DNA of 34,037 nucleotides, from IMG/VR virus record IMGVR_UViG_3300025118_000072, positions 1-34,037 of that record; one strand, given 5' to 3'. Shown piece after piece: positions 3,079-14,859 of this stretch. The notes under the pieces were generated by a model that ran no database searches, was not told the DNA's origin, and saw only the letters and a list, made by a program, of their open reading frames with translations. A program made the translations under genes and the position numbers. This DNA is from a virus. Each line of letters opens with the position of its first letter. Position 1 is the stretch's first letter.

Positions 3079-3332
3079 TCCTTCACCAGAGTCTCGTATT
3101 TGTCAATTAGTTTACCGTTGGGATCCGCAATCGTCAAGATCTTATCTGAGTGGATCATGAATGTGTTTTGACTGGTAATATCTACCAACCATGGTTGCAT
3201 AGTTCCGTCACTCTGTAGAATGAATGGTTCGATCAACCTACAATCAGGTTCACCAAGCTCAGTAGATACTTCTTCAATCTGTGTTATCAGTTTGAAGTTC
3301 GTCTCCAGAACCAGAATTTTTAGGGGTTTCAT
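3075..3332 (-). CDS. Small Sm-like-barrel protein, family copy A
   Basis: An 85-residue protein directly upstream of gp43 (ATGA overlap). It shares a pattern with three other proteins in this window (3274-3627, 5388-5672, 16761-17150): an N-terminal strand (LKILVLETN), an IEP/YP-type turn, a central PW (here MQPWLVD), a hydrophobic strand (DKILTIADP) and a C-terminal helix ending in KYET. Size and predicted five-strand layout resemble an Sm/SH3-like small beta barrel; this is inference from pattern only. Its first 59 bases overlap the end of the upstream paralogue in another frame, which is unusually long for this phage. The start is chosen because the first strand aligns with the paralogues from residue 3. 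Role unknown; an RNA-binding or protein-adaptor role is possible. Confidence 0.75.
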   Translation of the reverse strand: MKPLKILVLETNFKLITQIEEVSTELGEPDCRLIEPFILQSDGTMQPWLVDITSQNTFMIHSDKILTIADPNGKLIDKYETLVKE

Positions 3333-3627
3333 ACTTCTTAACTCCTTCAGTGTACATATTCAATAATTGGTTAACTGGTTCTGTAATAGTCACAATCCAG
3401 TCAGATACAACAGGTATGGTCTTATCTTTAGTCAACGGCATCCAAGGAAGAAGTTGAATTTTAGAAGGAACTCTGGAAGAACCATCGGTAGTCTCTACGG
3501 TAGCAGAAAGATTAACGCGACAAGGGTATTTAAGGTAGTAACCCACAACCTTTTCCTCTACAACCATCTCCGAAACATCTGCTATTACATCTTCACCAGA
3601 CTTCAGCAGCAGCAATTTGATACTCAT
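3274..3627 (-). CDS. Small Sm-like-barrel protein, family copy B
   Basis: A 117-residue protein, first gene after the promoter at 3652-3680. It begins MSIKLLLLKSGEDVIADVSE, has YPCRV in the middle, LLPWMPLT as the PW motif, then SDWIVTITEP and a helix ending KKYETPKN, followed by a polar tail. The same landmarks occur in copies A, C and D, and KSGEDVIADV matches NTGEEVIYTQ of copy C and KCGDEIFAKV of copy D. It sits where T4 has gene 42 (dCMP hydroxymethylase), between regA and 43. The leader between the predicted transcription start and the ATG is about 20 nt and holds AGGAAAA. Function is unknown. Confidence 0.78.
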   Translation of the reverse strand: MSIKLLLLKSGEDVIADVSEMVVEEKVVGYYLKYPCRVNLSATVETTDGSSRVPSKIQLLPWMPLTKDKTIPVVSDWIVTITEPVNQLLNMYTEGVKKYETPKNSGSGDELQTDNTD

Positions 3628-3651
3628 TTGTTTACAAGTTTTCCTAGATTA

Positions 3652-3680
3652 ATTATACCATAAAAAAAACGGGGCGTCAA
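3652..3680 (-). promoter_or_regulatory. Sigma70-type promoter for the gp43 operon
   Basis: On the minus strand TTGACG (plus 3675-3680) is followed after exactly 17 nt by TATAAT (plus 3652-3657), a near-consensus host sigma70 promoter. The -35 hexamer lies inside the 3' arm of the hsp20 terminator hairpin and the T-tract forms part of the spacer. It would start transcription near 3645, upstream of Sm-like copies B and A, gp43 and uvsX. Confidence 0.75.
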
Positions 3681-3702
3681 CTGGATTGTGCCAGTTGCCC
3701 CG
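3662..3702 (-). terminator. Intrinsic terminator after hsp20
   Basis: Minus-strand hairpin with arms at 3691-3702 and 3670-3684: 12 base pairs (CGGGGCAACTGG against CCAGTTG and CCCCG) with a 3-nt bulge and a 6-nt loop, followed by eight T residues (plus 3662-3669). It lies 27 nt after the hsp20 stop. It is the strongest terminator in the window. Confidence 0.88.
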
Positions 3703-3728
3703 CTGGTCGTGCGACGACGATACTCTAT

Positions 3729-4154
3729 TTAGAGGTATTCCCTTCGTTGGTGGTGTTCGGGAACAACTTTAGTGAGGGTGACTGAGAGAAGTCCGTCTTC
3801 AAATACGACGTTGGAGATTTCAGTGTCTTCAGCAAGGGTCCAGGCTCTTGTAAAGTCTCTTTGAGCCAGTCCCTGATGGATAAACGTCTGTTCTTCATTG
3901 GAAACTTTCTTCCCTTCGACATAAAGTTTTCCATACTCGGTGTAAGCATGCACCTCCTCCTTTTTAAATCCTGCTAATGCAATCTCCAAGCGTGTTTCAT
4001 TACCATTCACTTGGATAACATTATATGGAGGATAATTTGTTGTAGTTGCGTTAAATACCTGATCGAAATAGTCTCCCATTCCAATCGAATTCCTGGTCAT
4101 ACGATCCAATAGCTGGTCCAAATTGGCAGCATTGTACTTCGTTAAGTTAGTCAT
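3729..4154 (-). CDS. hsp20: Small heat shock protein Hsp20 (IbpA class)
   Basis: A 141-residue alpha-crystallin protein, an ATP-independent holdase that keeps unfolding proteins soluble. The alpha-crystallin domain runs from YPPYNVIQ (residues 41-48) through LAGFKKEEV and GLAQRDFTRAWTLAED to FEDGLLSVTL (118-127), the usual closing motif. The C-terminus (VPEHHQRREYL) lacks a clear I-x-I motif, so oligomer contacts may differ. The ATG at 4154 is preferred over upstream codons because AAGGAG lies about 8 nt before it. hsp20 is a well-known accessory gene of T4-like cyanophages. It has its own apparent -10 element (4215-4220) and its own terminator, so it behaves as a single-gene unit between regA and the gp43 operon. 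Confidence 0.95.
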   Translation of the reverse strand: MTNLTKYNAANLDQLLDRMTRNSIGMGDYFDQVFNATTTNYPPYNVIQVNGNETRLEIALAGFKKEEVHAYTEYGKLYVEGKKVSNEEQTFIHQGLAQRDFTRAWTLAEDTEISNVVFEDGLLSVTLTKVVPEHHQRREYL

Positions 4155-4214
4155 GTGACTTCTCCTTAGTAAGCGAGAGTGTGTTGTGTGGACCCTTTCG
4201 GCATCCATGTACTA

Positions 4215-4220
4215 ATTATA
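4215..4220 (-). promoter_or_regulatory. Possible -10 element for hsp20
   Basis: A perfect TATAAT lies 60 nt upstream of the hsp20 start and just after the hairpin at 4235-4262. No TTGACA-like hexamer is found at 16-18 nt spacing, so only the -10 is supported. Confidence 0.4.
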
Positions 4221-4386
4221 ATAGATTGCACAAATAAGAGGGTGTGAAAACCCCCTTATTGTTGTTCGGTTTTCTGGGGTCAAAGTCTGGATCGTAATCC
4301 GGTTCCCTTGGATCTATACGGGGATCCCACCAATAAAACTGACATTGGTGTAATCTTAAATGGCACAGTGGCTTACTAAGTTCCAT
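4216..4386 (-). CDS. Putative 56-aa acidic/proline-rich small protein
   Basis: The ATG at 4386 overlaps the regA stop (TAATG) and opens a 56-codon frame starting MELSKPLCHLRLHQCQFYWW. The middle is a run of D-P dipeptides (residues 22-37: DPRIDPREPDYDPDFD), which looks like selected protein sequence rather than noise. The last 15 or so codons run through the terminator-like hairpin at 4235-4262, and the stop lies beyond it. That makes the 3' end doubtful: the message may end before the stop codon, or the hairpin may be inefficient. No family is recognised. Confidence 0.5.
   Translation of the reverse strand: MELSKPLCHLRLHQCQFYWWDPRIDPREPDYDPDFDPRKPNNNKGVFTPSYLCNLL
4235..4262 (-). terminator. 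Hairpin after regA, probable terminator
   Basis: The minus strand has a 10-bp stem, AATAAGGGGG against CCCTCTTATT (one G-T pair), with an 8-nt loop TTTTCACA. The downstream tract is T-rich but short (TTATTTGTG), so termination may be partial. It separates the gp45-regA cluster from hsp20. Confidence 0.55.
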
Positions 4387-4823
4387 TAACCCTCTTCTTC
4401 GGATTTACCTCTCTTACCAATATTATACTTCTGCTCTAACACCCACTCTTGCTTATCCTTATACGACAACACTTTAATCTGGTTGAGGGGTGCGATGTCA
4501 AGAACATCATCTTCTTTGACTATCGTAATGAGTCCCCAATCAGCAAGAAGCTTAGTAATACGATTCCTACGCTGAACATCGTTAATAGTAAGATTAGCGT
4601 ACTTACCATCAAGGGCAAACAACTCTTTGAAGTGAACGATAAAATACTTACCTTGCTTATGAAGGATGTGACAAGACTGATATAGTTTCCTTTCTTTTCT
4701 GGATGCTACACCGATACGTGTAAGGGTTTCTCTCACTTTAAGAAAGTCATCAGGTTCATTAAGTTTGATCTCAACCATCTGGCTCTGAGACCAACTAACC
4801 TGAGGCTCAACAATATTTGTCAT
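4386..4823 (-). CDS. regA: RegA translational repressor
   Basis: A 145-residue homologue of T4 RegA, which binds mRNA near start codons of early genes (including 44, 45 and regA itself in T4) and blocks translation. Diagnostic matches to T4 are EPDDFLKVRETLTRIG, YQSCHILHKQGKYFIVHFKE and LLADWGLITIV, and the end WVLEQKYNIG. The protein carries about 15 extra N-terminal residues; a second ATG at 4778 (MVEIKLNEPDDFL) aligns with the T4 start and could be the true one. The ATG at 4823 overlaps the gp62 stop as ATGA, which favours the longer form. Gene order 45-44-62-regA is as in T4, with insertions. Confidence 0.95.
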   Translation of the reverse strand: MTNIVEPQVSWSQSQMVEIKLNEPDDFLKVRETLTRIGVASRKERKLYQSCHILHKQGKYFIVHFKELFALDGKYANLTINDVQRRNRITKLLADWGLITIVKEDDVLDIAPLNQIKVLSYKDKQEWVLEQKYNIGKRGKSEEEG

Positions 4824-5203
4824 TTAGTACCACCAGTGTCAAGTCGTTGTTTGATAAAATCAATTTGTTCATCAGATAAGATTTTCAGAACTTGAGATGC
4901 TTTCTCATTACTATAACCATAGTATTGTTTGACATACTCTATGTCTGATACCTTCTCCTTACGTAGCCAAGGAGAAAATCTCTTCTTCTTTCTCAATATA
5001 TTTAGATAAAAATTATATTGCATATCCTTATCCAAGAAATGATACTTGTTCATTTCATTAGAGAATAACACACAATCCAAGTGACCTGACAAACATTTAT
5101 TGACAATAAAGGATGGGTACTCCTTGATAAGAGTGGAGTCTTCTTTAATAAGATTCTCCTTATTAAAGTTGATGGAGTTGAGCCAATCCTTAAGTTCTGT
5201 CAT
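4820..5203 (-). CDS. 62: Clamp loader small subunit (T4 gp62)
   Basis: A 127-residue homologue of gp62, the single small subunit that joins four gp44 ATPases to open the gp45 clamp and load it at primer-template junctions. Recognisable stretches are KEYPSFIVNKCLSGHLD, LFSNEMNKYHFLDKDMQY and the basic run RKKKRFSPWLRKE. It is clearly shorter than T4 gp62 (187 aa), the missing part being C-terminal to the conserved block. The start is the ATG at 5203, overlapping the preceding stop (TAATG); the upstream TTG is not needed. It overlaps regA by 4 nt. Confidence 0.92.
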   Translation of the reverse strand: MTELKDWLNSINFNKENLIKEDSTLIKEYPSFIVNKCLSGHLDCVLFSNEMNKYHFLDKDMQYNFYLNILRKKKRFSPWLRKEKVSDIEYVKQYYGYSNEKASQVLKILSDEQIDFIKQRLDTGGTK

Positions 5204-5388
5204 TACCAATGATCAACGTTTGCAATATACTGGTAGATCAAACTCCACCCAAATTCATATGTACTACCAGTCTCATCCTGAAGATAGAAAGGTAGTGTAG
5301 GAAATATTTTCTTTGCTGAATAGAATTGACTGATAACAGTATAGTCATCATCAATACATCTCTCTTTCTCCAACTCTTCTTCACTCAT
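5203..5388 (-). CDS. 61-aa hypothetical protein upstream of gp62
   Basis: A 61-residue acidic, aromatic-rich protein starting MSEEELEKERCIDDDYTVIS and ending in VDHW. Its ATG overlaps the preceding stop (TGATG) and its stop overlaps the gp62 start (TAATG), so it is co-translated with clamp-loader genes. No signal peptide or membrane segment is seen and I do not recognise the family. Location between Sm-like copy C and gp62 suggests a replication-time role, unproven. Confidence 0.75.
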   Translation of the reverse strand: MSEEELEKERCIDDDYTVISQFYSAKKIFPTLPFYLQDETGSTYEFGWSLIYQYIANVDHW

Positions 5389-5672
5389 CACAGAATCAGT
5401 TTCTTACTGGGAGTTTCAATCTTGGAGAAGATCTTCTTGTAGTTATCTACAACCATCTCTCTTGCTTCGATCACATAAACAATATAATCTTTAGAGATTT
5501 TGATTGTCTGACCTTCATCAGAAAGATATGACCAAGGAGAAAAACCAATCTGACCCTGTGCATTAGGTAAAGCGACTAAAGCATTCTCAACTTCAACATA
5601 ATCATCAGTTTCATTTACTTGGGTGTAGATTACCTCTTCACCGGTATTCATTCGTAATACTTTGACTTCCAT
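5388..5672 (-). CDS. Small Sm-like-barrel protein, family copy C
   Basis: A 94-residue protein in the clamp-loader cluster. It starts MEVKVLRMNTGEEVIYTQVN and shows the family pattern: first strand with GEEVI, a central ALPNAQ turn, FSPWSYLS as the PW motif, then ISKDYIVYVIEAR and a C-terminal helix ending KIETPSK. ETP also ends copy B. The ATG at 5672 is preferred to the upstream TTG; no clear Shine-Dalgarno is visible. Its stop overlaps the next start (TGATG). The fold is an inference; no catalytic residues are seen. Confidence 0.75.
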   Translation of the reverse strand: MEVKVLRMNTGEEVIYTQVNETDDYVEVENALVALPNAQGQIGFSPWSYLSDEGQTIKISKDYIVYVIEAREMVVDNYKKIFSKIETPSKKLIL

Positions 5673-5874: not shown

Positions 5875-6818
5875 TTAAAGTTACACTCAATCATAATTTC
5901 AGTTAGACAAGCCAACATATTTATTTCTTGGTCCGCGACGAAAGAACTCTGATACTGATACTTAGCAATAATGAGAACAGCAGCAGCAATCCCTGAACCA
6001 TCCAATTTTGTATATACAGAATCGTATATGCTGCGAAGCAAGACGTTAGGATCGTTGTCAAGATTATCGACCACCCACTTACGTACCTTTGGGAAGTCTT
6101 TTGCTTTGAGTTGTTTGAAGAGTTCATCTGTTTTAACATTAGAGAATGCTGCAAGGATACCGGTGTCAATCTTACCACTGACAGAGTATCGTTGTAACTC
6201 ATTTAGGACACGTCTCCAGTCGGGGAAGTGTTTCTGAATAAGTTCGACCAGGACCTTGTTATCATATTCAACACTTTCTGCAGCCAAGATTTCTTGGAGA
6301 CGTTTGAAGAACTGACCTGCAACTCCCTGTCTCTCTTTTCCCTTAATGGCAAAGTCGATGACTGCACATCGGGAGTGGAGGGGAGCAATGATCTTATTTT
6401 TATAGTTGCAAGTGAAGATGAATCTACAATTACCAATGAACTCCTCAGTAAACGCCCGTAGGCAGAGTTGAACATCCGGGGTTGTGTTGTCAGCTTCGTC
6501 AATGATAATGACTTTGTGTTTAGAATCTGACGAAAGTGAGACGGTCGAAGCAAAGTTTTTCGCATTGTTTCTGACAGTATCAAGGAATCGTCCTTCATCT
6601 GATCCGTTGATAACATAATAATCTACTCCAAGTTCATGACAAAGTGCTTTGGCCACTGTGGTTTTACCACATCCAGGTGGACCAGACAAAAGTAGATTAG
6701 GTACTTCACCCTTATCTACAAATTGTTTAAACATATTCTTGATTCCCTCAGGGAGAATACAATCTTCAATAGTCTGAGGTCGATAAGATTCAACCCAGAC
6801 AAATTCATTACGACTCAT
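5871..6818 (-). CDS. 44: Clamp loader ATPase subunit (T4 gp44)
   Basis: A 315-residue AAA+ ATPase (T4 gp44 is 319) that with gp62 loads the gp45 clamp. It starts MSRNEFVWVESYRPQTIEDC, the typical RFC-like box. Walker A is GPPGCGKT at residues 46-53, Walker B is VIIIDEAD at 103-110, sensor 1 is in FIFTCNYKNKI (134-143), and the SRC motif with the arginine finger is at 149-151. The C-terminal part matches the collar domain. All key residues are present. It lies between the 2OG oxygenase and a small membrane protein gene rather than directly after gp45 as in T4. Confidence 0.97.
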   Translation of the reverse strand: MSRNEFVWVESYRPQTIEDCILPEGIKNMFKQFVDKGEVPNLLLSGPPGCGKTTVAKALCHELGVDYYVINGSDEGRFLDTVRNNAKNFASTVSLSSDSKHKVIIIDEADNTTPDVQLCLRAFTEEFIGNCRFIFTCNYKNKIIAPLHSRCAVIDFAIKGKERQGVAGQFFKRLQEILAAESVEYDNKVLVELIQKHFPDWRRVLNELQRYSVSGKIDTGILAAFSNVKTDELFKQLKAKDFPKVRKWVVDNLDNDPNVLLRSIYDSVYTKLDGSGIAAAVLIIAKYQYQSSFVADQEINMLACLTEIMIECNFK

Positions 6819-6820
6819 AA

Positions 6821-7603
6821 TTAGTTAGTTGATTTTCTTAAAATAGAATGTTTAAGAGATTTAATAATAAAGTGTGGACAGGTTGATGTATCATATAGAG
6901 TATGATATTTTGGTTCATCAATATTGTCAAGGGCATGCGATAATCCCCGATATAGATCCATCATAAAGGGATCCTTTATCTTAGTGCGAGTCCAGAATAC
7001 AATAACATCCCTATGACCTTTCGTCACTTCATTTACCCGATGTGGTGTTCCAGTCCTATAGGTGACTGAACTACCTGCCGGAAGTTTAAATTTTTTCTCT
7101 TTACCATCGAACCATAGACAAAGTTCTCCTCCCTCGTAATCATCATTTAAGAATATCGTTGTACTGTAATCACCCAGGTCAGGATTGTCATGATGGGGAC
7201 GATAGTAACCACCAACAGAAGTTCGGGTTACCATTGGAAGTTCACTAGACTTTGCAGCAGTAAAAATATAGAACTCATTTTTATTATCAACTTGTGTAAA
7301 AACAATGTCCGATAACTGACGTTTTACATCATCATTAATTCTAAGTTGTTGATTTACTTTATTTTCTTTTTCACCAGTATAAGTTACATTTCCATCTTCC
7401 CAGTCTCCAAATCGATCTATCAGACGATAGATACAATCTACATCTTTCTTTGGTAGATTTTCTTCAATGATAAGATAATTACTCACATTTCTTCTCCTTT
7501 CATTTAACCACTCTTGAAACCGTTTTCTCCCCTTTTCTACTTTCCACCAAGGCGCATAGAGGGGACCATCATAATCCTTCTTCTTATCCAAAGGTAAATC
7601 CAT
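6821..7603 (-). CDS. 2OG-Fe(II) oxygenase, prolyl-4-hydroxylase-like
   Basis: A 260-residue non-haem iron dioxygenase that should use 2-oxoglutarate and O2 to hydroxylate a substrate. The double-stranded beta helix core carries the iron ligands H137 and D139 (in YYRPHHDN) and H188 (in GTPHRV), with R198 (in GHRD) as the likely 2OG-binding arginine. FLNDDYEGGELCLW is the strand pair typical of the P4Hc/PiuC group. The first 110 residues are specific to this protein. Such enzymes are frequent in marine T4-like phages; substrates (protein proline, nucleic acid base or other) are not known. It is inserted between the clamp and clamp-loader genes, and its start overlaps the upstream membrane protein gene by 20 nt. 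Confidence 0.9.
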   Translation of the reverse strand: MDLPLDKKKDYDGPLYAPWWKVEKGRKRFQEWLNERRRNVSNYLIIEENLPKKDVDCIYRLIDRFGDWEDGNVTYTGEKENKVNQQLRINDDVKRQLSDIVFTQVDNKNEFYIFTAAKSSELPMVTRTSVGGYYRPHHDNPDLGDYSTTIFLNDDYEGGELCLWFDGKEKKFKLPAGSSVTYRTGTPHRVNEVTKGHRDVIVFWTRTKIKDPFMMDLYRGLSHALDNIDEPKYHTLYDTSTCPHFIIKSLKHSILRKSTN

Positions 7604-7811
7604 ATAAATGTGATAGAGAGATTACTAATAGAAATGATATCATAGTAACAACATCCCAAGATTTTGTCCTTATAAAGTAAGGAATCGATATACAATCTCC
7701 TATCATTTGAGCACCAACACCGATAGTAGTGTTTACATGGAGAATAATAAAATAGGCAATGATTACAAGAAATGATCCTATAATCCTGCCCATAATATCA
7801 ATCTGTCTCAT
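7584..7811 (-). CDS. 75-aa multi-pass membrane protein
   Basis: A hydrophobic protein starting MRQIDIMGRIIGSFLVIIAY. Two clear membrane segments (about residues 9-25 and 55-72) flank a shorter hydrophobic middle with conserved-looking GAQMIGDCISIPYFIRT, possibly a third. Start at the ATG 7811 (an upstream TTG is rejected; an ATG at 7793 is possible), with GAGAGG upstream. It overlaps the preceding gene by 14 nt and the oxygenase gene by 20 nt. Family not recognised; role in the cell envelope is presumed. Confidence 0.7.
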   Translation of the reverse strand: MRQIDIMGRIIGSFLVIIAYFIILHVNTTIGVGAQMIGDCISIPYFIRTKSWDVVTMISFLLVISLSHLYGFTFG

Positions 7812-8088
7812 CAATTGTTACCCTCTCTTCATAAAATACCTCGCCATTTGTGCTTACCATTTGTTGCAACCAGCGAGAATCCATCTCCCTACAATATACC
7901 TCTAAAATCGAATCATGTCCATGTTCTGTTATCCACTTACGTGTCCATCTATCACCTGTAGTGTCACTTAACTCAGCATTATAATAGAAACCTTTATCTA
8001 CAATACCTGCGATAAATGTTTCCTCTGGTGTTGGTAGTTCTGGCGCAGTAATCATAAATGCACTGCGAATTTTATCCAAAATAGTCAT
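7798..8088 (-). CDS. 96-aa hypothetical protein downstream of gp45
   Basis: A soluble acidic protein starting MTILDKIRSAFMITAPELPT and rich in tryptophan and glutamate (DRWTRKWITEHGHDSILEVY). It is the first gene after the double hairpin that follows gp45, preceded by an AGGAGG at an atypically long distance (about 13 nt). No catalytic motif or membrane segment is recognised. It opens the run: unknown, membrane protein, oxygenase, gp44. Confidence 0.72.
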   Translation of the reverse strand: MTILDKIRSAFMITAPELPTPEETFIAGIVDKGFYYNAELSDTTGDRWTRKWITEHGHDSILEVYCREMDSRWLQQMVSTNGEVFYEERVTIDETD

Positions 8089-8123
8089 GGTCTTAAGGAA
8101 TCCTCCTATAATATGTTAAAATG

Positions 8124-8184
8124 AAAAAGGGATTAATCCCCCCCTATTGATTTAGTCCCCTCTATGATATGTATTATGATAGAG
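8124..8184 (-). terminator. Two consecutive hairpins after gp45, probable terminator
   Basis: Minus strand after the gp45 stop: first a 10-bp stem with one mismatch and a 5-nt loop (arms 8175-8184 and 8160-8169), then GGGACTAA (8152-8159) pairing with TTAATCCC (8129-8136) with one mismatch, followed by five T (8124-8128). GGGATTAATCCC at 8129-8140 is also a palindrome by itself. The intergenic gap (8089-8209) holds nothing else that I can support. Confidence 0.5.
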
Positions 8185-8209
8185 ACAACTACTTATTCTC
8201 ATAGGAACA

Positions 8210-8875
8210 TCATCCAAAAGTAGAATCGGGCTCCAAAGCAATGTAATAAGTAACGTCAATATTCTGATTCGAGAAACGAGACAGAAGTTTTTCTGATACA
8301 ACCACATCATAGTTGCCAGGAACAATCTTCAGATTCTCCTCTTTAAAGTTGAAGACAAACTCATTGTCAGTATCGCCAACAATAATAGAGAAATCATTAG
8401 AGGTATCGTTCTTCTTGTCACGAGCAACCAACTTGATTACACCATTATCACCAATAACGGAGATATCGGGAAGTTGATATACAGATGCAGCCTTCTTCAG
8501 TTTCTCCAGTTGCTGACTGGTCAGTTGGAAGCATACATCCTCAGAGGGAAGAGTAATTTCTTTCTCAGGTGGTGCAACAATTACAGATGGGTCTGCAAAG
8601 AAATACTTGGATCGAGAACGACCTTCTTTAATCACAACGAACTGATCATTCTGAAAATCAAGGTCAGGTGAAGAGTGGAGGGACAGACCGTTAAGGAACT
8701 GGTTCAGATCATAGATACCAAAGTCTTTAGGGAATTCTTCAGGCACATTGGCTTCAACCAAGATATTCTTCATGACAGAAATACTCCGGAGCTTCTGACC
8801 TTCCTTGAACAAGATAGATTGGTTGATAGAAGAGAAGTTCTTCAGAAGTAATACAGTGCTGTCTGATAATTTCAT
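8210..8875 (-). CDS. 45: Sliding clamp (T4 gp45)
   Basis: A 221-residue processivity clamp (T4 gp45 is 228). It forms a ring around DNA, tethers gp43, and in T4 also activates late transcription by gp55-containing RNA polymerase. The N-terminus MKLSDSTVLLLKNFSSINQS and the stretch GIYDLNQFLNGLSL match T4 gp45 closely. The second half shows the repeated PCNA-like fold but no catalytic site, as expected. It sits 51 nt after the DUF3310-type gene with no strong ribosome binding site visible. RegA, encoded downstream, is the likely translational regulator by analogy with T4. Confidence 0.96.
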   Translation of the reverse strand: MKLSDSTVLLLKNFSSINQSILFKEGQKLRSISVMKNILVEANVPEEFPKDFGIYDLNQFLNGLSLHSSPDLDFQNDQFVVIKEGRSRSKYFFADPSVIVAPPEKEITLPSEDVCFQLTSQQLEKLKKAASVYQLPDISVIGDNGVIKLVARDKKNDTSNDFSIIVGDTDNEFVFNFKEENLKIVPGNYDVVVSEKLLSRFSNQNIDVTYYIALEPDSTFG

Positions 8876-8926
8876 AATATTGAAGTAGATGAGATGTGTT
8901 GTAAAAGGAAACCAAGTCCTATAGAA

Positions 8927-9337
8927 TCAGTTAAATGTTTCGTAGTCACCCTTTGGTTGCTTAGTGATACCAGAGAAGTGGTACAGGAGAATACAATAAT
9001 GAATGGCTTTGAGAATGTCAAGTCTAGACTTGCCGCCCTTCTTACCAAACCGTGAGAGATACTTGATAGCGGTGGATCGACAGAATGGTTCTGCGTCACC
9101 AATACTATTAATCAAGTCAAGTGTCTGAGTTTTACCGTCTCCTGCATAATGTGCTCTGTACGTGCCGCTCAGATAGTCACGTACTTCTTTGAGGATTACA
9201 TCCTCTTCATATCTCCAAAAACCACTCGTATTACTAATATTCAAATCAATTGCGTCATTGTGGGGAAGAGGGGTATATTCATACCCCTCTTTAGGTAGTT
9301 CATTCATATAATCATACAATAGGGACCATGAGTTCAT
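8927..9337 (-). CDS. DUF3310-type protein
   Basis: A 136-residue protein whose C-terminal half (EPFCRSTAIKYLSRFGKKGG, then DILKAIHYCILLYHF) matches the DUF3310/SaV-like pattern of phage proteins, where a helix with NAIKY..R.G.KG precedes a second amphipathic helix. The family is widespread in phages and often called a nucleotide kinase without direct proof, so I give no activity. It overlaps the AAA ATPase gene as ATGA. An internal ATG (MNELPKEGYEY) could be an alternative start. Confidence 0.7.
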   Translation of the reverse strand: MNSWSLLYDYMNELPKEGYEYTPLPHNDAIDLNISNTSGFWRYEEDVILKEVRDYLSGTYRAHYAGDGKTQTLDLINSIGDAEPFCRSTAIKYLSRFGKKGGKSRLDILKAIHYCILLYHFSGITKQPKGDYETFN

Positions 9338-10404
9338 TTTACCACCGTCGTAGACTCTTTGTCAACCATTTGGAAATCAACATCTACTTTGTCATATAAC
9401 TCCATAAATGCAGACTTGGTTTCTTCATCAAATCGGTTGATACAAACCTCAAGTGCTTTGGCCTTATTACTAAAGATAGAATAAGCACGAACGATATGAA
9501 CCAGACGACGGGTGGAAATTATCTCATCGATACCACCATCATAAAAAGTCTTACGAATGATATCTGCCCAGTCAACCAAGTGCTTACAAAATTCTTGGTC
9601 GCTACAACTTGAAGAAAGAATTTTAATCTCGGTTGAAGAATTCGGATAAGACTGTTCAAAGGTTACACAAAAACGCTCAAGAAATGCTTCGTTGAGAACA
9701 TTAGTACCAATGAACCTACCGTCTTCTGAACCCTTACCTTTGGTATTGGCGGTAGCAATGACATTAAAACCGTCCTTGGGCTGGACAAACTTACCAATCT
9801 TTTTGAGGAAGACACCCTTACCTTCAAGGATAGACTGAAGACAAAGAATCTTATTAGAAGCCAGATCAACCTCATCTAAAAGGAGGACAGCTCCCCTTTC
9901 CAATGCTTCAATAACTGGCCCATTATGCCATACAGTATTACCATCAATAAGGCGAAACCCACCAATAAGGTCGTCTTCGTCGGTTTCGATTGTGATGTTG
10001 ACACGAATTAATTCCCGTTTGAGTGCTGCACAGGCCTGTTCAACCAGGAAGGTCTTACCGTTTCCAGAAAGACCTGTAATAAACGCAGGATAGAATAAAC
10101 GGGACTGAATAATCTTTTTAATATCCGCATAGTTACCAAACTTGACGAAGGTATCATCTTTTGAAGGGATAAGGTTTTGTTCGATTACAGGAAGAGCTGC
10201 TGGTGCTTTATAGTCTTGTTCCAGTTTGTCTTGGACAGTAAAGTTCCACTTACCACGACCGACTTTAAATTCTTCCAGCTTACGAGTGACGGTATTATAT
10301 GTGGTGTCGTTCATGACGCACCATGCACGAATGTCGGCAGTAACAACCTCAGTTCCATACAAGTTACTGAGAGAAGAAGTGATGTATTCTAAGGACAGTG
10401 CCAT
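9334..10404 (-). CDS. cobS: MoxR/CobS-type AAA+ ATPase
   Basis: A 356-residue AAA+ ATPase of the type annotated 'CobS' in cyanophages. Walker A is GLSGNGKT (residues 111-118), Walker B is LLLDEVD (174-180), sensor 1 is in VIATANTKG (215-223), and NEAFLERF carries the arginine finger. The first 70 residues form a separate small helical domain (WCVMNDTTYNTVTRKLEEF). In bacteria CobS/MoxR ATPases work with vWA partners; here the zincin-vWA gene lies immediately upstream, strongly suggesting a pair. A true cobaltochelatase would need a CobN subunit, which is not seen in the window. The ATG at 10404 is used; the upstream in-frame codon at 10428 is TTG. Confidence 0.9.
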   Translation of the reverse strand: MALSLEYITSSLSNLYGTEVVTADIRAWCVMNDTTYNTVTRKLEEFKVGRGKWNFTVQDKLEQDYKAPAALPVIEQNLIPSKDDTFVKFGNYADIKKIIQSRLFYPAFITGLSGNGKTFLVEQACAALKRELIRVNITIETDEDDLIGGFRLIDGNTVWHNGPVIEALERGAVLLLDEVDLASNKILCLQSILEGKGVFLKKIGKFVQPKDGFNVIATANTKGKGSEDGRFIGTNVLNEAFLERFCVTFEQSYPNSSTEIKILSSSCSDQEFCKHLVDWADIIRKTFYDGGIDEIISTRRLVHIVRAYSIFSNKAKALEVCINRFDEETKSAFMELYDKVDVDFQMVDKESTTVVK

Positions 10405-10429
10405 GTGTGTTGTGTGTTTCAATAACAAT

Positions 10430-10435
10430 ATTATA
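10430..10435 (-). promoter_or_regulatory. Possible -10 element before the AAA ATPase gene
   Basis: TATAAT 26 nt upstream of the ATPase start, just after the hairpin at 10443-10461. No -35 hexamer is found at standard spacing. Confidence 0.35.
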
Positions 10436-10442
10436 GGACAAA

Positions 10443-10461
10443 ACCACCCCTGCGTGGTGGT
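10443..10461 (-). terminator. Weak hairpin terminator after the zincin-vWA gene
   Basis: ACCACC pairs with GGTGGT around a 7-nt loop, followed by four T. It may only partly stop transcription between the vWA and ATPase genes. Confidence 0.42.
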
Positions 10462-10484
10462 CGTTGTGACAGTTTCTCAAGTGG

Positions 10485-12611
10485 TCAACTAATAATATCC
10501 ACAAACTGACTCAATACCTTTCTATTTAGAGACTTAGAGTTAAGATTCTTAACAAAGGCAGACTTAATCTGGGCCTTCGTTGAACCAGACTCAACATCAA
10601 AATCAGTATCATTACCAAGTGCAGAGGTCAACATACCAAAGTATGAGGTATATCCAGCGGACTTCAGAGCAACAAACTTCTCCTTTTTAATCTTCTTGTA
10701 AGCATCGTCGGTAATAGTGTCCGAGTAACGACGGACAAATCCTTTGAAGTCGCTATTGTTAGCGATACGGATGCCGATGGTATTAACATCAGGAAAAGTT
10801 TGTTTGAGATTTTTCAAAAGAATCTCAGTAAACCTCCAATAATCGTGGCCAATCTGATAAGTGTGTCCGGTCTTACGATTACGAACAAAGTCACCAGCAT
10901 AGACACGACATGTTCCCATACGATCGTCACCATAATAATTATTCAGTTTGAAGAATGGGAGAACATTTGCTTCACCATCAGTTAGAATAATTGTATTAAC
11001 CTTCTGAACCTTATTCCTCTTTTGAAACTGAGGAATCAATTCATGGAGACAAATAATGGCTTCGTTGAGGGGTGTTCCCGATAGTGAATATTGACTAGGG
11101 AAACTAAAGTCACTCCACTGAGTAATACTAAAGGCCACACGAAAGATGTTCTTCAGTTGGTTGTCAAGAGTTCTCTTGTTCACATCACTCGTAAGGAAGT
11201 GCATGAGACTGAAGTCAGGAGAAATCATAAACTGATTCTCAATACATTCTTGTACTTCAGAGTCTTCCCATTTATCAACATATCTGCATTGATCCTTTAG
11301 GTATCTATTAGTGAAAGTATAGACATCAAATGGAATGTTTACTTTGTCACAAAACCAAACAAGATTAAAGAGTTGTTTGATGGTGTCGAGTAGACTGTCA
11401 CCCATCGAACCTGACCAGTCAAGGATAAAGATAAGACCATGATTCTTACCTTCAGGAATTACATTGACCTTCTTAAATAGATCTTCGTTATACTTGTAGG
11501 TATGAAGTTTAGAACAATCAAGAGTCCCAGTCTTAGAAGTGAATGAACGTGAATATGAATCTGCAGACTTCTTACACTCAAACTCCTTTACAAGATAGTT
11601 AACCTCTTTACTAGCAGACTTCTTAAACTCATTGTAAGTATTGTTAACATTATCGAAGTTTTTGGGTTTAGTGAGTTTTTTCTTCTCACTATAAGGACAA
11701 TAGTATTCTTGAGGATTCTGTTGTTCGTACCAAGAAGTTTCTAGTTCCTCATGAATTTTCTTATTGGTAACAACAATCTGGGGAATATTAATCCTAGGGA
11801 CTTCAACATAATTAGAAAGTCTACTACCTCTAGAGATATCACCATTGAACTCTTGAGCTCCCTGTTCAAAGGCATTATCAGTCTGAACCTCCAATGAATT
11901 GGATGGATCAGTATGTTGAGAATACCCACCAGAAGTGTCGGAGTCACTCTCAATAGACGAACCCTCTTCATTACCATCATCTTGATTAGACTGGGGTTGG
12001 GATTCACCCTCACCAGAACCAGTTTGATTACTACTAGCGGGAATATCAGCAACCTTCTCTTTATCATGCTCATCTTTACAATATTTGTAAAGAGCCTCAG
12101 CAACCATCACGGTATCACTGAAAGTTTCAGACTCTCTCATCATATCGAGAATATCCTGTTCCTTCTTATCATGAACAGGAATATCAACAAACCTACCAAT
12201 CTTAAAGTAAAGATTAGCACGGTCAGCCAGATTCATATTACTAACATCTCTTTCCTCAATATCAAAGAAGTCATCTTCAGCAAGTTCTTCATAACCCTTG
12301 TAGAAGTCTTTTGCTAGACCGGGATACCGACGTTTCATCAGTTTCTCAATCCGTGCATCCTCAACCACATTAACAAACTGTTTGGGAATACGATCTTCCC
12401 AGGTCCAGTCATTAGGAGTATAAAGAGCGTGACCAACTTCGTGACCCACAAGCATATTATATACGTCATTAGATGCCAACTTCCACATAGGAAGTGTCAG
12501 GACACGTCTCTCTACATCAAACTGTGCGGTTTCGACTGTACGGTTCTCCACTACCAGGTCCTCTGTGGCAAGGAGCTTAGCGAGTTGTGACTTGATCTGG
12601 TAGTTGATCAT
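10485..12611 (-). CDS. Zincin-like peptidase/vWA protein (CobT-like partner)
   Basis: A 708-residue protein with three parts. Residues 1-200 look like a zinc metallopeptidase: HEVGHALY (H57, E58, H61) followed by NVVEDARIEK (E84/D85), the helix pair seen in CobT-like predicted peptidases. Residues about 200-265 are a Ser/Gly/Asp/Glu-rich disordered linker. The C-terminal part is a von Willebrand A domain with the metal-binding MIDAS DWSGSMGDS near residue 396, followed by a conserved TDGEAN strand. vWA proteins pair with MoxR-type ATPases, and that ATPase is the next gene. The ATG at 12611 is chosen over an upstream TTG. Usual cyanophage names are 'peptidase' or 'CobT'. Substrate and role are unknown; a chaperone-like or proteolytic remodelling machine is plausible. 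Confidence 0.88.
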   Translation of the reverse strand: MINYQIKSQLAKLLATEDLVVENRTVETAQFDVERRVLTLPMWKLASNDVYNMLVGHEVGHALYTPNDWTWEDRIPKQFVNVVEDARIEKLMKRRYPGLAKDFYKGYEELAEDDFFDIEERDVSNMNLADRANLYFKIGRFVDIPVHDKKEQDILDMMRESETFSDTVMVAEALYKYCKDEHDKEKVADIPASSNQTGSGEGESQPQSNQDDGNEEGSSIESDSDTSGGYSQHTDPSNSLEVQTDNAFEQGAQEFNGDISRGSRLSNYVEVPRINIPQIVVTNKKIHEELETSWYEQQNPQEYYCPYSEKKKLTKPKNFDNVNNTYNEFKKSASKEVNYLVKEFECKKSADSYSRSFTSKTGTLDCSKLHTYKYNEDLFKKVNVIPEGKNHGLIFILDWSGSMGDSLLDTIKQLFNLVWFCDKVNIPFDVYTFTNRYLKDQCRYVDKWEDSEVQECIENQFMISPDFSLMHFLTSDVNKRTLDNQLKNIFRVAFSITQWSDFSFPSQYSLSGTPLNEAIICLHELIPQFQKRNKVQKVNTIILTDGEANVLPFFKLNNYYGDDRMGTCRVYAGDFVRNRKTGHTYQIGHDYWRFTEILLKNLKQTFPDVNTIGIRIANNSDFKGFVRRYSDTITDDAYKKIKKEKFVALKSAGYTSYFGMLTSALGNDTDFDVESGSTKAQIKSAFVKNLNSKSLNRKVLSQFVDIIS

Positions 12612-12699: not shown

Positions 12700-12709
12700 T
12701 AGAAACTAA

Positions 12710-12738
12710 ACCCCCCAAGGCGAGAAGCATTGGGGGGT
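12710..12738 (-). terminator. Intrinsic terminator after the gp46 unit
   Basis: A 9-bp perfect stem, ACCCCCCAA against TTGGGGGGT, with an 11-nt loop, followed on the minus strand by TTTAGTTTC. It separates the small genes behind gp46 from the zincin-vWA gene. The stem is symmetric, so weak action on the other strand is possible. Confidence 0.78.
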
Positions 12739-12769: not shown

Positions 12770-12940
12770 TTAAGTATCTGTAAGAATGTGACGGCAAAAC
12801 CTCCTTGCTGTACTATCTATAATCTCACAATCCGAAATGCATTGGAAGTAATCTGTGACTTGATCGGTTGGTTCCTCAGTAGCGGTTTTTTCATCCCACT
12901 TCCAAGATGCTAGTTCGTTCCGTGATAAAAGGTCTTTCAT
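12770..12940 (-). CDS. 56-aa hypothetical protein
   Basis: Starts MKDLLSRNELASWKWDEKTA and ends CRHILTDT; three cysteines occur in the second half (CISDCEII, FCRHI). The ATG at 12940 is preferred to the in-frame ATG at 12952 because GGAG lies 7 nt upstream of it. A TATAAT element ends only about 20 nt before it. The protein is soluble and not recognised. It ends about 30 nt before the terminator at 12710-12738, so it closes the gp46 unit. Confidence 0.62.
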   Translation of the reverse strand: MKDLLSRNELASWKWDEKTATEEPTDQVTDYFQCISDCEIIDSTARRFCRHILTDT

Positions 12941-12960
12941 AATGTTCTCCATATCACTAC

Positions 12961-13009: not shown

Positions 13010-13150
13010 TTAATGGAGATGAATAGTACCAGCCTCAGGATGAACGTGAGGGATAGTACTGTTATATGAATGGAACTGACCGTGAATAATTCCTCCACCC
13101 AGAAGAACGAAGAAACTAATCAGACCAATAAATTTTATATACTTAGTCAT
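13010..13150 (-). CDS. 46-aa membrane-anchored histidine-rich micro-protein
   Basis: The ATG at 13150 overlaps the gp46 stop (TAATG). The 46 residues start MTKYIKFIGLISFFVLLGGG: two lysines then a 14-residue hydrophobic stretch, a signal anchor or signal peptide. The remaining 25 residues contain six histidines (GQFHSYNSTIPHVH, then IHLH), a possible metal-binding tail outside the cytoplasm. The coupling to gp46, the clean charge/hydrophobic layout and lack of overlap with other genes make it credible. Function unknown. Confidence 0.68.
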   Translation of the reverse strand: MTKYIKFIGLISFFVLLGGGIIHGQFHSYNSTIPHVHPEAGTIHLH

Positions 13151-14859
13151 TAGAGTTTTCTAGAGAATCCTTTATGCTTTTCAAATTTGACAACATCTTC
13201 AAACTTGTCCTCCATACCAGTCTTGTGACTAATAACGAAGATATTAGCATCTTTTATTATATATCTAATAATTTTAAGGAACTCATCAGTACCAAAACCA
13301 TCTAATGAACTATCAAATACCTCGTCCATAATAAGAAGATTGGTATTGACAGAGTTCTTGACACGAGCAATCTCCCTCCAGGTGAATAGGAGTGACAGGT
13401 CAATCCGCATCTTCTCTCCTTCACTGAAAGATGCGTAGGAGAAATCCTCATGGATAGGAGACTCAACAGTTTCGTTGAACTCCTCATCCAGTTTAAAATT
13501 AATATAGAAGTCCATCTTCTGTAGATACTTATTAACCTGTTGGTTAATCAATGGAAGATACTTCTTGATGATCTTCGACTTTACGCCACCATCCTTAAGA
13601 AGACCATAGATGAAATCGTGGTAAGAAATATCATCTTTACGCTTTACCAGATCATCATAGGTCTGATCTAGACTGGTTCTTAATGTATCTAACTTTTCAT
13701 GTTCAATATTTCTGTTTTTGATCTGGTTGGTAATAGTTTGAATTTCCGATTCAAGTCCACCGATCTGTCGTTGAAAACCAGTAATCTGTACATTGAAAGA
13801 AGAGATGCCATTAAGTGTGTTTGAAATTTGTGAGGACAGTTGTTTAAATTGTGATTCTCTCAACTCTTCCTTTTCAATTGCGGATTGGAGTTGGTTAAAC
13901 CCTTCACGCAATTCTTCTGCTTTATTTTGAGAGTCACTGATTCTATTTAATCGAAAGGATTCTTCAATATCCTGTTCGCAGGTAGGACAAACCGTATTTT
14001 CGGTAAAAAATTTATGTTCTTTAACAATAGTTTGTATACGTTGAGACAATTTACCTTTTATATTACCAAACTCTCTCAATCTTTCTGATGAATTCTCTAC
14101 ATCCTGTAGTTGCTCTCTAAGACCAAGTAGTTTATTTTCTTGTTTTGCACTATCATCAAAACATGTCTGAACATTTGTATTCAGTTTTTCAATCTTATCT
14201 AATTTGTCACTGATATCACCCTTACTTTGCATCTCATTCTTATCAATAAAGTCTTTTTGCATATCAACTTTATCTTTTAGACTCTCTTTCTTAAGTTCTA
14301 GAGTCTTTACCTCTTCACGAATCTTTCTAATCTTACCCTTAATTACATCATTCATGGAAGAGAAGATTTTTATATCCAACAAATCCTCCACAACTTCCCT
14401 ACGTGATGCTACTGGGAGTTGCATAAAGGGTACAAATGTAGACGAACCAAGGATCACAATCTGTGTGAATGACTTATAATTCATCTTAAGAACATTCTGT
14501 TCCAACCACTTCTGTTGATCCAGAGCGGAGTGAGACTGATCTAATTCTTCATCATTACGATACAGTTTGAAAATATTTGGTTTGATTCCACGTTTGATCT
14601 TCCAGTTGACAGAATTTACATCAAATTCTATATCAACTAGACAACCCTTATCATTGGTAGAGTTTATCAACTGCGCCTTGTTAATCTTACGGAATGACTT
14701 ACCGTATAAAACAAAGGTCAAAGCATCAAGAATTGTAGACTTACCCGCACCGTTTGATCCGATGATCAGGGTAGTCTGTTCCTTGTCTAGGTCAACCGTT
14801 GTCATGTGGTTCCCGGTGCTCAAGAAGTTACACCAGGCAATCTTTTTAAAAATTATCAT
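13150..14859 (-). CDS. 46: Recombination endonuclease subunit gp46 (Rad50/SbcC-like)
   Basis: A 569-residue SMC-like ATPase (T4 gp46 is 560). Walker A is GSNGAGKS at residues 34-41; two long coiled-coil arms flank the zinc hook CPTC (C291, C294); near the C-terminus are the ABC signature FSEGEKMRIDLSLL and Walker B LLIMDEVFDSS. With gp47 it resects DNA ends to start recombination-dependent replication and, in T4, degrades host DNA. It overlaps the DUF3110-like gene by 14 nt. A micro-protein gene is coupled to its stop codon. Confidence 0.96.
   Translation of the reverse strand: MIIFKKIAWCNFLSTGNHMTTVDLDKEQTTLIIGSNGAGKSTILDALTFVLYGKSFRKINKAQLINSTNDKGCLVDIEFDVNSVNWKIKRGIKPNIFKLYRNDEELDQSHSALDQQKWLEQNVLKMNYKSFTQIVILGSSTFVPFMQLPVASRREVVEDLLDIKIFSSMNDVIKGKIRKIREEVKTLELKKESLKDKVDMQKDFIDKNEMQSKGDISDKLDKIEKLNTNVQTCFDDSAKQENKLLGLREQLQDVENSSERLREFGNIKGKLSQRIQTIVKEHKFFTENTVCPTCEQDIEESFRLNRISDSQNKAEELREGFNQLQSAIEKEELRESQFKQLSSQISNTLNGISSFNVQITGFQRQIGGLESEIQTITNQIKNRNIEHEKLDTLRTSLDQTYDDLVKRKDDISYHDFIYGLLKDGGVKSKIIKKYLPLINQQVNKYLQKMDFYINFKLDEEFNETVESPIHEDFSYASFSEGEKMRIDLSLLFTWREIARVKNSVNTNLLIMDEVFDSSLDGFGTDEFLKIIRYIIKDANIFVISHKTGMEDKFEDVVKFEKHKGFSRKL

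Follow-up and report, generated by a model that had tools for sequence, protein, structure and literature searches.

Two adjacent genes form a core pair of the Kyanoviridae and are present in practically every T4-like phage that infects ocean cyanobacteria, including the virus analyzed here (IMG/VR record IMGVR_UViG_3300025118_000072, positions 1 to 34,037, a stretch of 34,037 nucleotides referred to below as the window). The larger gene encodes an HExxH-vWA protein (P2) and the smaller an AAA+ ATPase (P1). Sequence motifs and structure models incline us, with modest confidence, to the view that P1 and P2 act together as an AAA+-driven remodeller or protease on replication-recombination or other DNA-bound complexes.

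Locus and distribution of the pair

The coordinates and domain features of both genes in the first-pass annotation were confirmed on the sequence (Table 1), and both proteins match their families far beyond chance. The P1 open reading frame spans 9334-10428 on the minus strand, with the ATG at 10404 a likelier start than the TTG at 10428. The pair does lie between gp46 and gp45, but the description of it as an insertion in one phage gives way to that of a core feature of Kyanoviridae: full-length relatives of P2 occur in 463 phage records, and both genes were found together at 150 loci (at most 300 bp apart at 102). gp46 is upstream at 89 of 103 loci, an arrangement that is usual and not universal (in S-CREM2 and S-CRM01 the pair is placed apart from gp46), and gp45 is downstream at 62 of 72. 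The intergenic region between P2 and P1 has a stem of at least 6 pairs in 40/92 cases, versus 2/92 when shuffled, and a TATAAT in 43/92, versus 15 when shuffled; the operator-like motif AAACTGKCAC, which a few promoters share, was not above chance.

Table 1. Features of the P2-P1 locus, in window coordinates.
Feature	Position	Strand	Basis or remark
gp45 sliding clamp, PF09116	8210-8875	-	neighbor of the pair
Small ORF, DUF3310	8927-9337		between gp46 and gp45
P1, CobS/MoxR-class AAA+ ATPase, PHROG_249	9334-10404	-	PHROG match E 3e-136; AAA_5, CbbQ_C
Walker B of P1, VLLLDE	9871-9888	-	sequence
Walker A of P1, GLSGNGKT	10051-10074	-	sequence
Terminator-like hairpin, then TATAAT, P2/P1 intergenic	10430-10458	-	sequence
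P2, 708-aa HExxH-vWA protein, PHROG_459 'peptidase'	10485-12611	-	ORF, ATG at 12611; PHROG match E 6e-251
vWA domain, P2 residues 388-708	10488-11450	-	structural matches
MIDAS motif DWSGS, P2 residues 398-402	11406-11420	-	invariant D398, S400, S402, with T513 and D545
Acidic low-complexity linker, P2 residues ~190-245	11877-12044	-	low pLDDT
Predicted zincin-like domain, P2 residues 1-189	12045-12611	-	AlphaFold2 and structural matches
NVVEDAR, P2 residues 81-87, E84 the proposed third zinc ligand	12351-12371	-	invariant, partly search-selected
HEVGH, P2 residues 57-61	12429-12443	-	invariant H57, E58, H61
Small ORF, PHROG_665	12770-12952		between gp46 and gp45
gp46, PHROG_77	13150-14859	-	neighbor of the pair

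Related pairs lie beside bet-exo on an IncA plasmid, beside exo, bet or toprim at several genome loci, near primase, helicase and polymerase in ICP2, and with ligase and polymerase nearby in Rhizobium phage N1_10, hairong and SSU5, the last representing a type of enterobacterial phage that carries the related pair. No clear replication setting surrounds the related pair in Gordonia phage Kvothe or Roseobacter phage CRP-810. The AAA protein of Staphylococcus Kayvirus was rejected as the same pair, a neighbor with the N-terminal motif and a MIDAS being absent from the stretch read. Zero relatives of the OC-phage protein were found in IMG/VR.

Domain architecture and metal sites

The division of P2 into a HEVGH domain, an acidic linker and a vWA domain with an intact MIDAS was borne out by sequence and conservation. 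At H57, E58, H61, E84 and the MIDAS positions no residue varies among the 166 homologues with coverage, leaving both metal sites unchanged down to ~30% identity; E84, together with N81, D85 and R87, belonged to the search pattern that fetched many of these 166, D398 to a single pattern, and H57, E58 and H61 to none. Frequent loss of HEVGH among homologues had been named as a refutation of the first interpretation, and no loss was found in 166 within the family. P1, first described as an intact MoxR/CobS ATPase, has both Walker motifs and passes AAA_5 (PF07728; 71.5 bits, cut-off 22), by which it can be assigned to the MoxR/CobS class of AAA+ proteins; its AAA sequence also matches the AAA repeats of midasin.

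AlphaFold2 modeled the N-terminal domain of P2 at a pLDDT of 94.7 (about 28-41 for linker residues 191-240), with helices at 48-64 and 77-95 and E84 on the helix after HEVGH. Motif and model together give P2 the gluzincin pattern, HExxH with a putative glutamate ligand on the next helix. Nearly all of the best 50 structural matches of residues 1-189 are zinc metallopeptidases, headed by jannalysin (Z 7.5), ArdC (7.2) and selecase (7.0), with IrrE/PprI and Wss1 also among them; since every VIA Z is below 8 and the Foldseek E-values are weak (best 0.16), the zincin fold is claimed on the agreement of many matches and on the independent motif. The vWA domain best matches the MIDAS domain of MDN1/Rea1 (Z 16.3), and then the vWA of NorD (Z 15.3), both of which partner AAA+ remodellers. 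Neither P2 nor 16 relatives matched PF13203 or PF09967 (DUF2201 metallopeptidase-vWA) at E 0.1. P2 by itself returned nothing relevant from PDB sequences and the A1 profile gave low-complexity matches only, so bridging sequences were needed for sequence links.

Parts of this plan recur in known systems. Minigluzincins (jannalysin, selecase), ArdC, IrrE/PprI and Wss1 have compact HExxH domains like P2 1-189 (Z 4.7-7.5), but the matched chains have no AAA+ or vWA partner and share 5-15% identity. The AAA-DUF3150-vWA cassette of IncA/C and ICE type likewise combines an AAA+ protein with a protein bearing HExxH, NILEDxRIE and vWA, by recombination genes, and its N-terminal domain aligns with that of P2 at E 4e-27; it differs in the DUF3150 gene between or beside the two, and its vWA is too divergent from that of P2 for hhalign to join. 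Rea1/midasin, in contrast to P2, is one giant eukaryotic polypeptide in which a zincin domain is not described, whereas NorQ-NorD and CbbQ-CbbO, also two-gene AAA+ plus vWA systems, are metalloenzyme activators.

A candidate remodelling protease

A remodelling or proteolytic machine had been put forward as a better guess than cobalamin synthesis, and the invariant metal sites and the predicted zincin-like and vWA folds speak for it. In the order of events that we infer, the P1 ring would supply ATP-driven force and P2, acting as a vWA substrate adaptor, would dock on this ring, its flexible acidic linker tethering a putative zinc-protease domain of gluzincin type. In Rea1/midasin the MIDAS metal binds an acidic residue of the target protein and, by analogy, that of P2 may do the same. 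The P1 ring would then tug at the target or loosen it for cleavage at the zinc site, where H57, H61 and E84 are the presumed ligands and E58 the presumed catalytic base. Least certain is the target, most likely a protein of some phage or host complex, either one for replication-recombination or another that is bound to DNA; this class is suggested, indirectly, by the replication and recombination genes that repeatedly flank related pairs.

A remodeller or activase of the NorQD, CbbQO or Rea1 type, in which the zincin domain binds metal or peptide and does no cutting, is unlikely, though it is the alternative that survives best. NorD and Rea1 as top vWA matches are consistent with it, as is the CbbQ_C cut-off passed by P1 (25.9 bits), and HExxH is dispensable in a working relative, CobT, and missing from the relative in phage hairong too; however, the invariance of the catalytic E58 is hard to explain by a purely structural metal site.

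The cobalamin label and the meaning of the pair

Both genes usually carry a vitamin B12 label. In the view of Liu et al. 2021 (PMC8651126), the larger gene is cobT and its peptidase annotation a mistake; the authors proposed that the phage pair hijacks host CobN. For marine cyanomyoviruses, cobS is counted as core and filed under vitamin B12 synthesis, for example in PMC9983427, which describes its phage function as unknown. In such a hijack, phage CobS and CobT would join host CobN, placing cobalt into corrin and raising B12 during infection, which we consider improbable, and more so than an activase without proteolysis. A partner would be available, since Synechococcus genomes carry CobN/ChlH-family genes (34/34 genomes of the genus, two copies in 30), and a CobT_C domain is present in 0/34. 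Bridging families establish homology between the vWA-AAA pair and CobST, and CobS-CobT (TIGR01650, TIGR01651, PF06213, PF11775) has the same plan of an AAA+ protein plus an N-domain, acidic linker and C-terminal vWA-MIDAS. Profile A2, with bridging phage proteins included, matches CobT chain 9uka_G (E 1e-16), most true CobT keep the positions of P2 E84 and R87, and the MIDAS-bearing vWA of P2 is homologous to that of CobT.

Several observations nonetheless argue against a chelatase role. HExxH is kept in 0/30 bona fide CobT and never lost in the phage family. Both proteins fall below the CobS and CobT family cut-offs: P1 scores 68.6 bits against TIGR01650, where 558.55 are needed, and P2 has no match to TIGR01651 at E 0.1, the sole TIGR match noted for it being TIGR02442 (E 0.0026, 16.3 of 779 bits). 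CobN is absent from all 25 phages and plasmids tested, and a CobN-family gene from 6 of 10 cellular genomes holding related genes; E. coli controls were negative for CobN, yet the SSU5-type phages infect enterobacteria. A B12-independent class I RNR, with both subunits, is encoded in 16/16 kyanoviruses tested. The kyanovirus P2 clade separates from CobT with support 1.0 in a tree whose deep nodes are not resolved, and hhalign links the kyanovirus family to true CobT weakly (probability 27-75%), the connection running through the plasmid/ICE family. The hhalign register, unlike that of MAFFT, sets HEVGH opposite a conserved HHDxxxH of CobT, and HExxH is missing from CobT under both. The CobNST cryo-EM chains are absent from the structural matches, which, with a library ending in April 2026, is uninformative on similarity. 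SAR11 is not known to synthesize B12.

The earlier doubt over the cobalamin label is upheld by the lack of CobN in the tested phages and plasmids and by such pairs in CobN-less genomes. Its supporting remark, that no chelatase subunit is nearby, is true locally but not decisive, since host Synechococcus carries CobN; for the same reason the B12 reading is weakened only. The label 'viral vitamin B12 gene', though widely quoted, is probably wrong.

Least probable is a host-takeover or antirestriction protease aimed at host defence or regulatory proteins and not at replication complexes: ArdC, the second-best zincin-domain match, is an antirestriction protein of plasmid R388 and the carriers of the pair are phages and conjugative elements, but neither P1 nor P2 matched PADLOC (a library of defence, not counter-defence), and a gene pair that nearly the whole family has, sited among genes of replication, looks more like a core function.

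The first interpretation thus holds in its architecture, its cobalamin doubt and its remodeller guess, and fails as to a single-phage insertion. We further speculate, as an unlikely extension, that kyanoviruses, conjugative plasmids and several unrelated phage groups share an ancient AAA+-gluzincin machine, functionally analogous to Cdc48-Wss1/SPRTN, that clears or cuts DNA-bound proteins during replication and recombination, and that CobT is a descendant whose protease site was lost on recruitment to B12 synthesis. If the pair is a remodelling protease, the inference of vitamin B12 synthesis from cyanomyovirus cobS would fall, and the 'peptidase' label called a mistake in PMC8651126 would be right. 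CobT would have a simple account, an adaptor bearing a protease having given rise to this chelatase subunit, and a cyanophage core gene, one of the few without a role, would become testable.

Genomic locus and distribution of the pair

Read in the direction of transcription, the minus strand of this 34-kb viral record carries gp47, one small gene, gp46, another small gene (PHROG_665), P2 (a 708-residue HExxH-vWA protein), P1 (its CobS/MoxR-class AAA+ ATPase partner), a DUF3310 protein and gp45. Re-reading of the sequence confirmed the coordinates of the first-pass annotation, as well as HEVGH at residues 57-61 of P2, the acidic linker, the MIDAS and the AAA motifs; the ATG at 10404 is the probable start codon of P1. 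P2 belongs to PHROG_459 ('peptidase', E 6e-251) and P1 to PHROG_249 ('porphyrin biosynthesis', E 3e-136). Terminator-like hairpins, each followed by a TATAAT-like element, precede both genes. A P2-P1 intergenic stem of at least six pairs is found in 40 of 92 relatives versus 2 of 92 shuffled sequences, and a separate promoter, lying behind an attenuator, may drive P1. The DUF3310 gene lies directly 3' of P1, sharing four bases with the end of that gene; PHROGs related to the DUF3310 protein are labeled nucleotide kinase.

Coordinates of the window features and related loci
Feature	Source	Position	Strand	Remark
P2	window	10485-12611	-	HExxH-vWA protein
P1	window	9334-10404	-	AAA+ ATPase
DUF3310 protein	window	8927-9337	-	30.1 bits, cut-off 24
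Hairpin ahead of P1	window	10430-10458		terminator-like
Hairpin ahead of P2	window	12709-12738		terminator-like
P1 and P2 homologs	Synechococcus phage S-CREM2 (L012)	5995-9249		'MoxR-like ATPase', 'ribosome assembly protein'
CobT-like protein	Pseudomonas phage hairong (L028)	2427-4502		SEIAK replaces HExxH
Pair gene	Nonlabens xiamenensis (L157)	5986-8196		kyanovirus type, 38% identity
CobT	Roseobacter phage CRP-810 (L209)	3693-5645		HEAGH retained

The initial view of the pair as an isolated insertion was not borne out, the pair being a family core: P2 was matched by tblastn in 463 phage records, and 150 fetched loci hold both genes. Records named Synechococcus, Cyanophage and Prochlorococcus gave identical tblastn counts for P1 and P2 (365, 61 and 24, respectively), and P2 is present too in Pelagibacter, Ochrobactrum, Pseudoalteromonas and Stenotrophomonas phages. 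Among the 150 loci, 102 pairs lie on one strand at most 300 bp apart, gp46 lies upstream of the pair in 89 of the 103 loci with room, gp45 lies downstream in 62 of 72 with room, and order or strand deviates in four. The cyanophage core includes cobS (Sullivan et al. 2010, PMC3037559); the gene pair is already known, and the novelty lies in its functional reading and the comparison with CobT. S-CREM2 has been described as lacking cobS (PMC10665884), an annotation artefact: its ATPase is 60% identical to P1, and the HExxH-vWA protein goes under the name 'ribosome assembly protein'. The Nonlabens pair gene sits on a 188-kb contig from the genome of a flavobacterial isolate that has no CobN, and perhaps belongs to a T4-like phage of flavobacteria.

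Putative zinc site, vWA domain and AAA+ motor

In 166 covering homologs, ranging down to ∼30% identity with the window protein, H57, E58, H61, N81, E84, D85 and R87 are invariant, as are D398, S400, S402, T513 and D545 of the MIDAS; one search pattern demanded N..ED.RI, so that N81, E84, D85 and R87 are partly selected, and the HExxH columns were part of no pattern. In a predicted model of residues 1-189 alone, built from 57 sequences (pLDDT 94.7), HEVGH falls within helix 48-64 and helix 77-95 bears E84. Foldseek gave a weak best E-value of 0.16, and nearly all of 50 VIA-align rows were zinc metallopeptidases, with jannalysin at the top (Z 7.5, 2.7 Å rmsd, 98 residues aligned), ArdC (Z 7.2) and selecase (Z 7.0) following, and IrrE/PprI and Wss1 ranking lower. 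Any one Z score below 8 is weak, and the zincin-like fold is proposed because the structural rows agree with the independent motif.

The best structural match of the vWA domain is the MDN1/Rea1 MIDAS domain (Z 16.3, 3.0 Å rmsd, 216 residues), with NorD also among the best (Z 15.3, 4.3 Å rmsd, 244 residues); both serve AAA+ remodellers. P1 scores above cut-off against AAA_5 (71.5 bits, cut-off 22) and CbbQ_C (25.9, cut-off 20.6) and below it against CobS, reaching just 68.6 of 558.55 bits.

Relationship to CobT

A genome scan identified cellular and mobile-element proteins that share the N-terminal motif HExxH ... NILEDIRIEK plus a vWA domain. Because their N-terminal domain aligns with the kyanovirus one (E 4e-27) and several exceed the Pfam CobT cut-off, they bridge the kyanovirus family and CobT. 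None of 30 true CobT proteins (TIGR01651 over cut-off) has HExxH in its N-terminal part; MAFFT places mostly A/S, I/F/L and R/K in these columns, with E84 retained by 27 of the 30 and R87 by 29, whereas hhalign sets HEVGH opposite a conserved HHDxxxH of CobT. In either register the putative catalytic glutamate is absent from CobT, which may still bind metal. In a midpoint-rooted tree of 64 proteins, whose deep nodes lack resolution, the kyanovirus proteins form a separate clade (support 1.0) and CobT forms one clade joined with CRP-810 (support 1.0), whose protein groups with true alphaproteobacterial CobT and is a possible intermediate. Relatives of the hairong protein in SSU5 and Rhizobium phages retain HExxH. 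On the simplest inference, polarity included, HExxH would have been lost at the base of CobT and, a second time, in hairong.

Cobalamin synthesis or DNA-bound complexes

Liu et al. 2021 (PMC8651126) regard the larger gene as a cobT wrongly labeled peptidase and propose that the pair recruits host CobN for B12 synthesis, a reading that we consider unlikely. Such hijacking is possible in exactly the Synechococcus hosts, since CobN/ChlH-family genes are present in every one of the 34 genomes of the genus (30 of them have two), and a CobT_C domain is missing from all. Against it, 25 phage and plasmid records contain no CobN-family gene, and neither do six of ten cellular genomes holding such genes, among them the isolates Nonlabens xiamenensis, Vibrio hepatarius, Methylophilus sp. 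and Desulfacinum hydrothermale; E. coli, a control genome, gave no CobN match. Both subunits of class I RNR are encoded in each of the 16 kyanoviruses tested, so these phages need no B12 for nucleotide reduction of their own.

Related pairs are found in replication or recombination settings. Plasmid pG3216.2 (IncA replicon) has the order AAA ATPase, hypothetical, bet, exo, DUF3150, HExxH-vWA; most of 22 genome loci contain the AAA-DUF3150-vWA cassette as well, and some of them also have exo, bet or toprim genes. In Salmonella phage SSU5 and Rhizobium phage N1_10, CobST- or porphyrin-annotated pairs adjoin DNA ligase and DNA polymerase, the hairong pair adjoins ligase and Pol III alpha, and that of Vibrio phage ICP2 adjoins primase, helicase and polymerase; no clear setting of this kind was found at the Gordonia Kvothe and Roseobacter CRP-810 loci. 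A remodelling protease is the best explanation and slightly more likely than not, its target class being the least certain element: P1 would be the motor and P2 a vWA adaptor with a built-in putative gluzincin, and their substrates would lie in replication-recombination complexes or in other DNA-bound assemblies.
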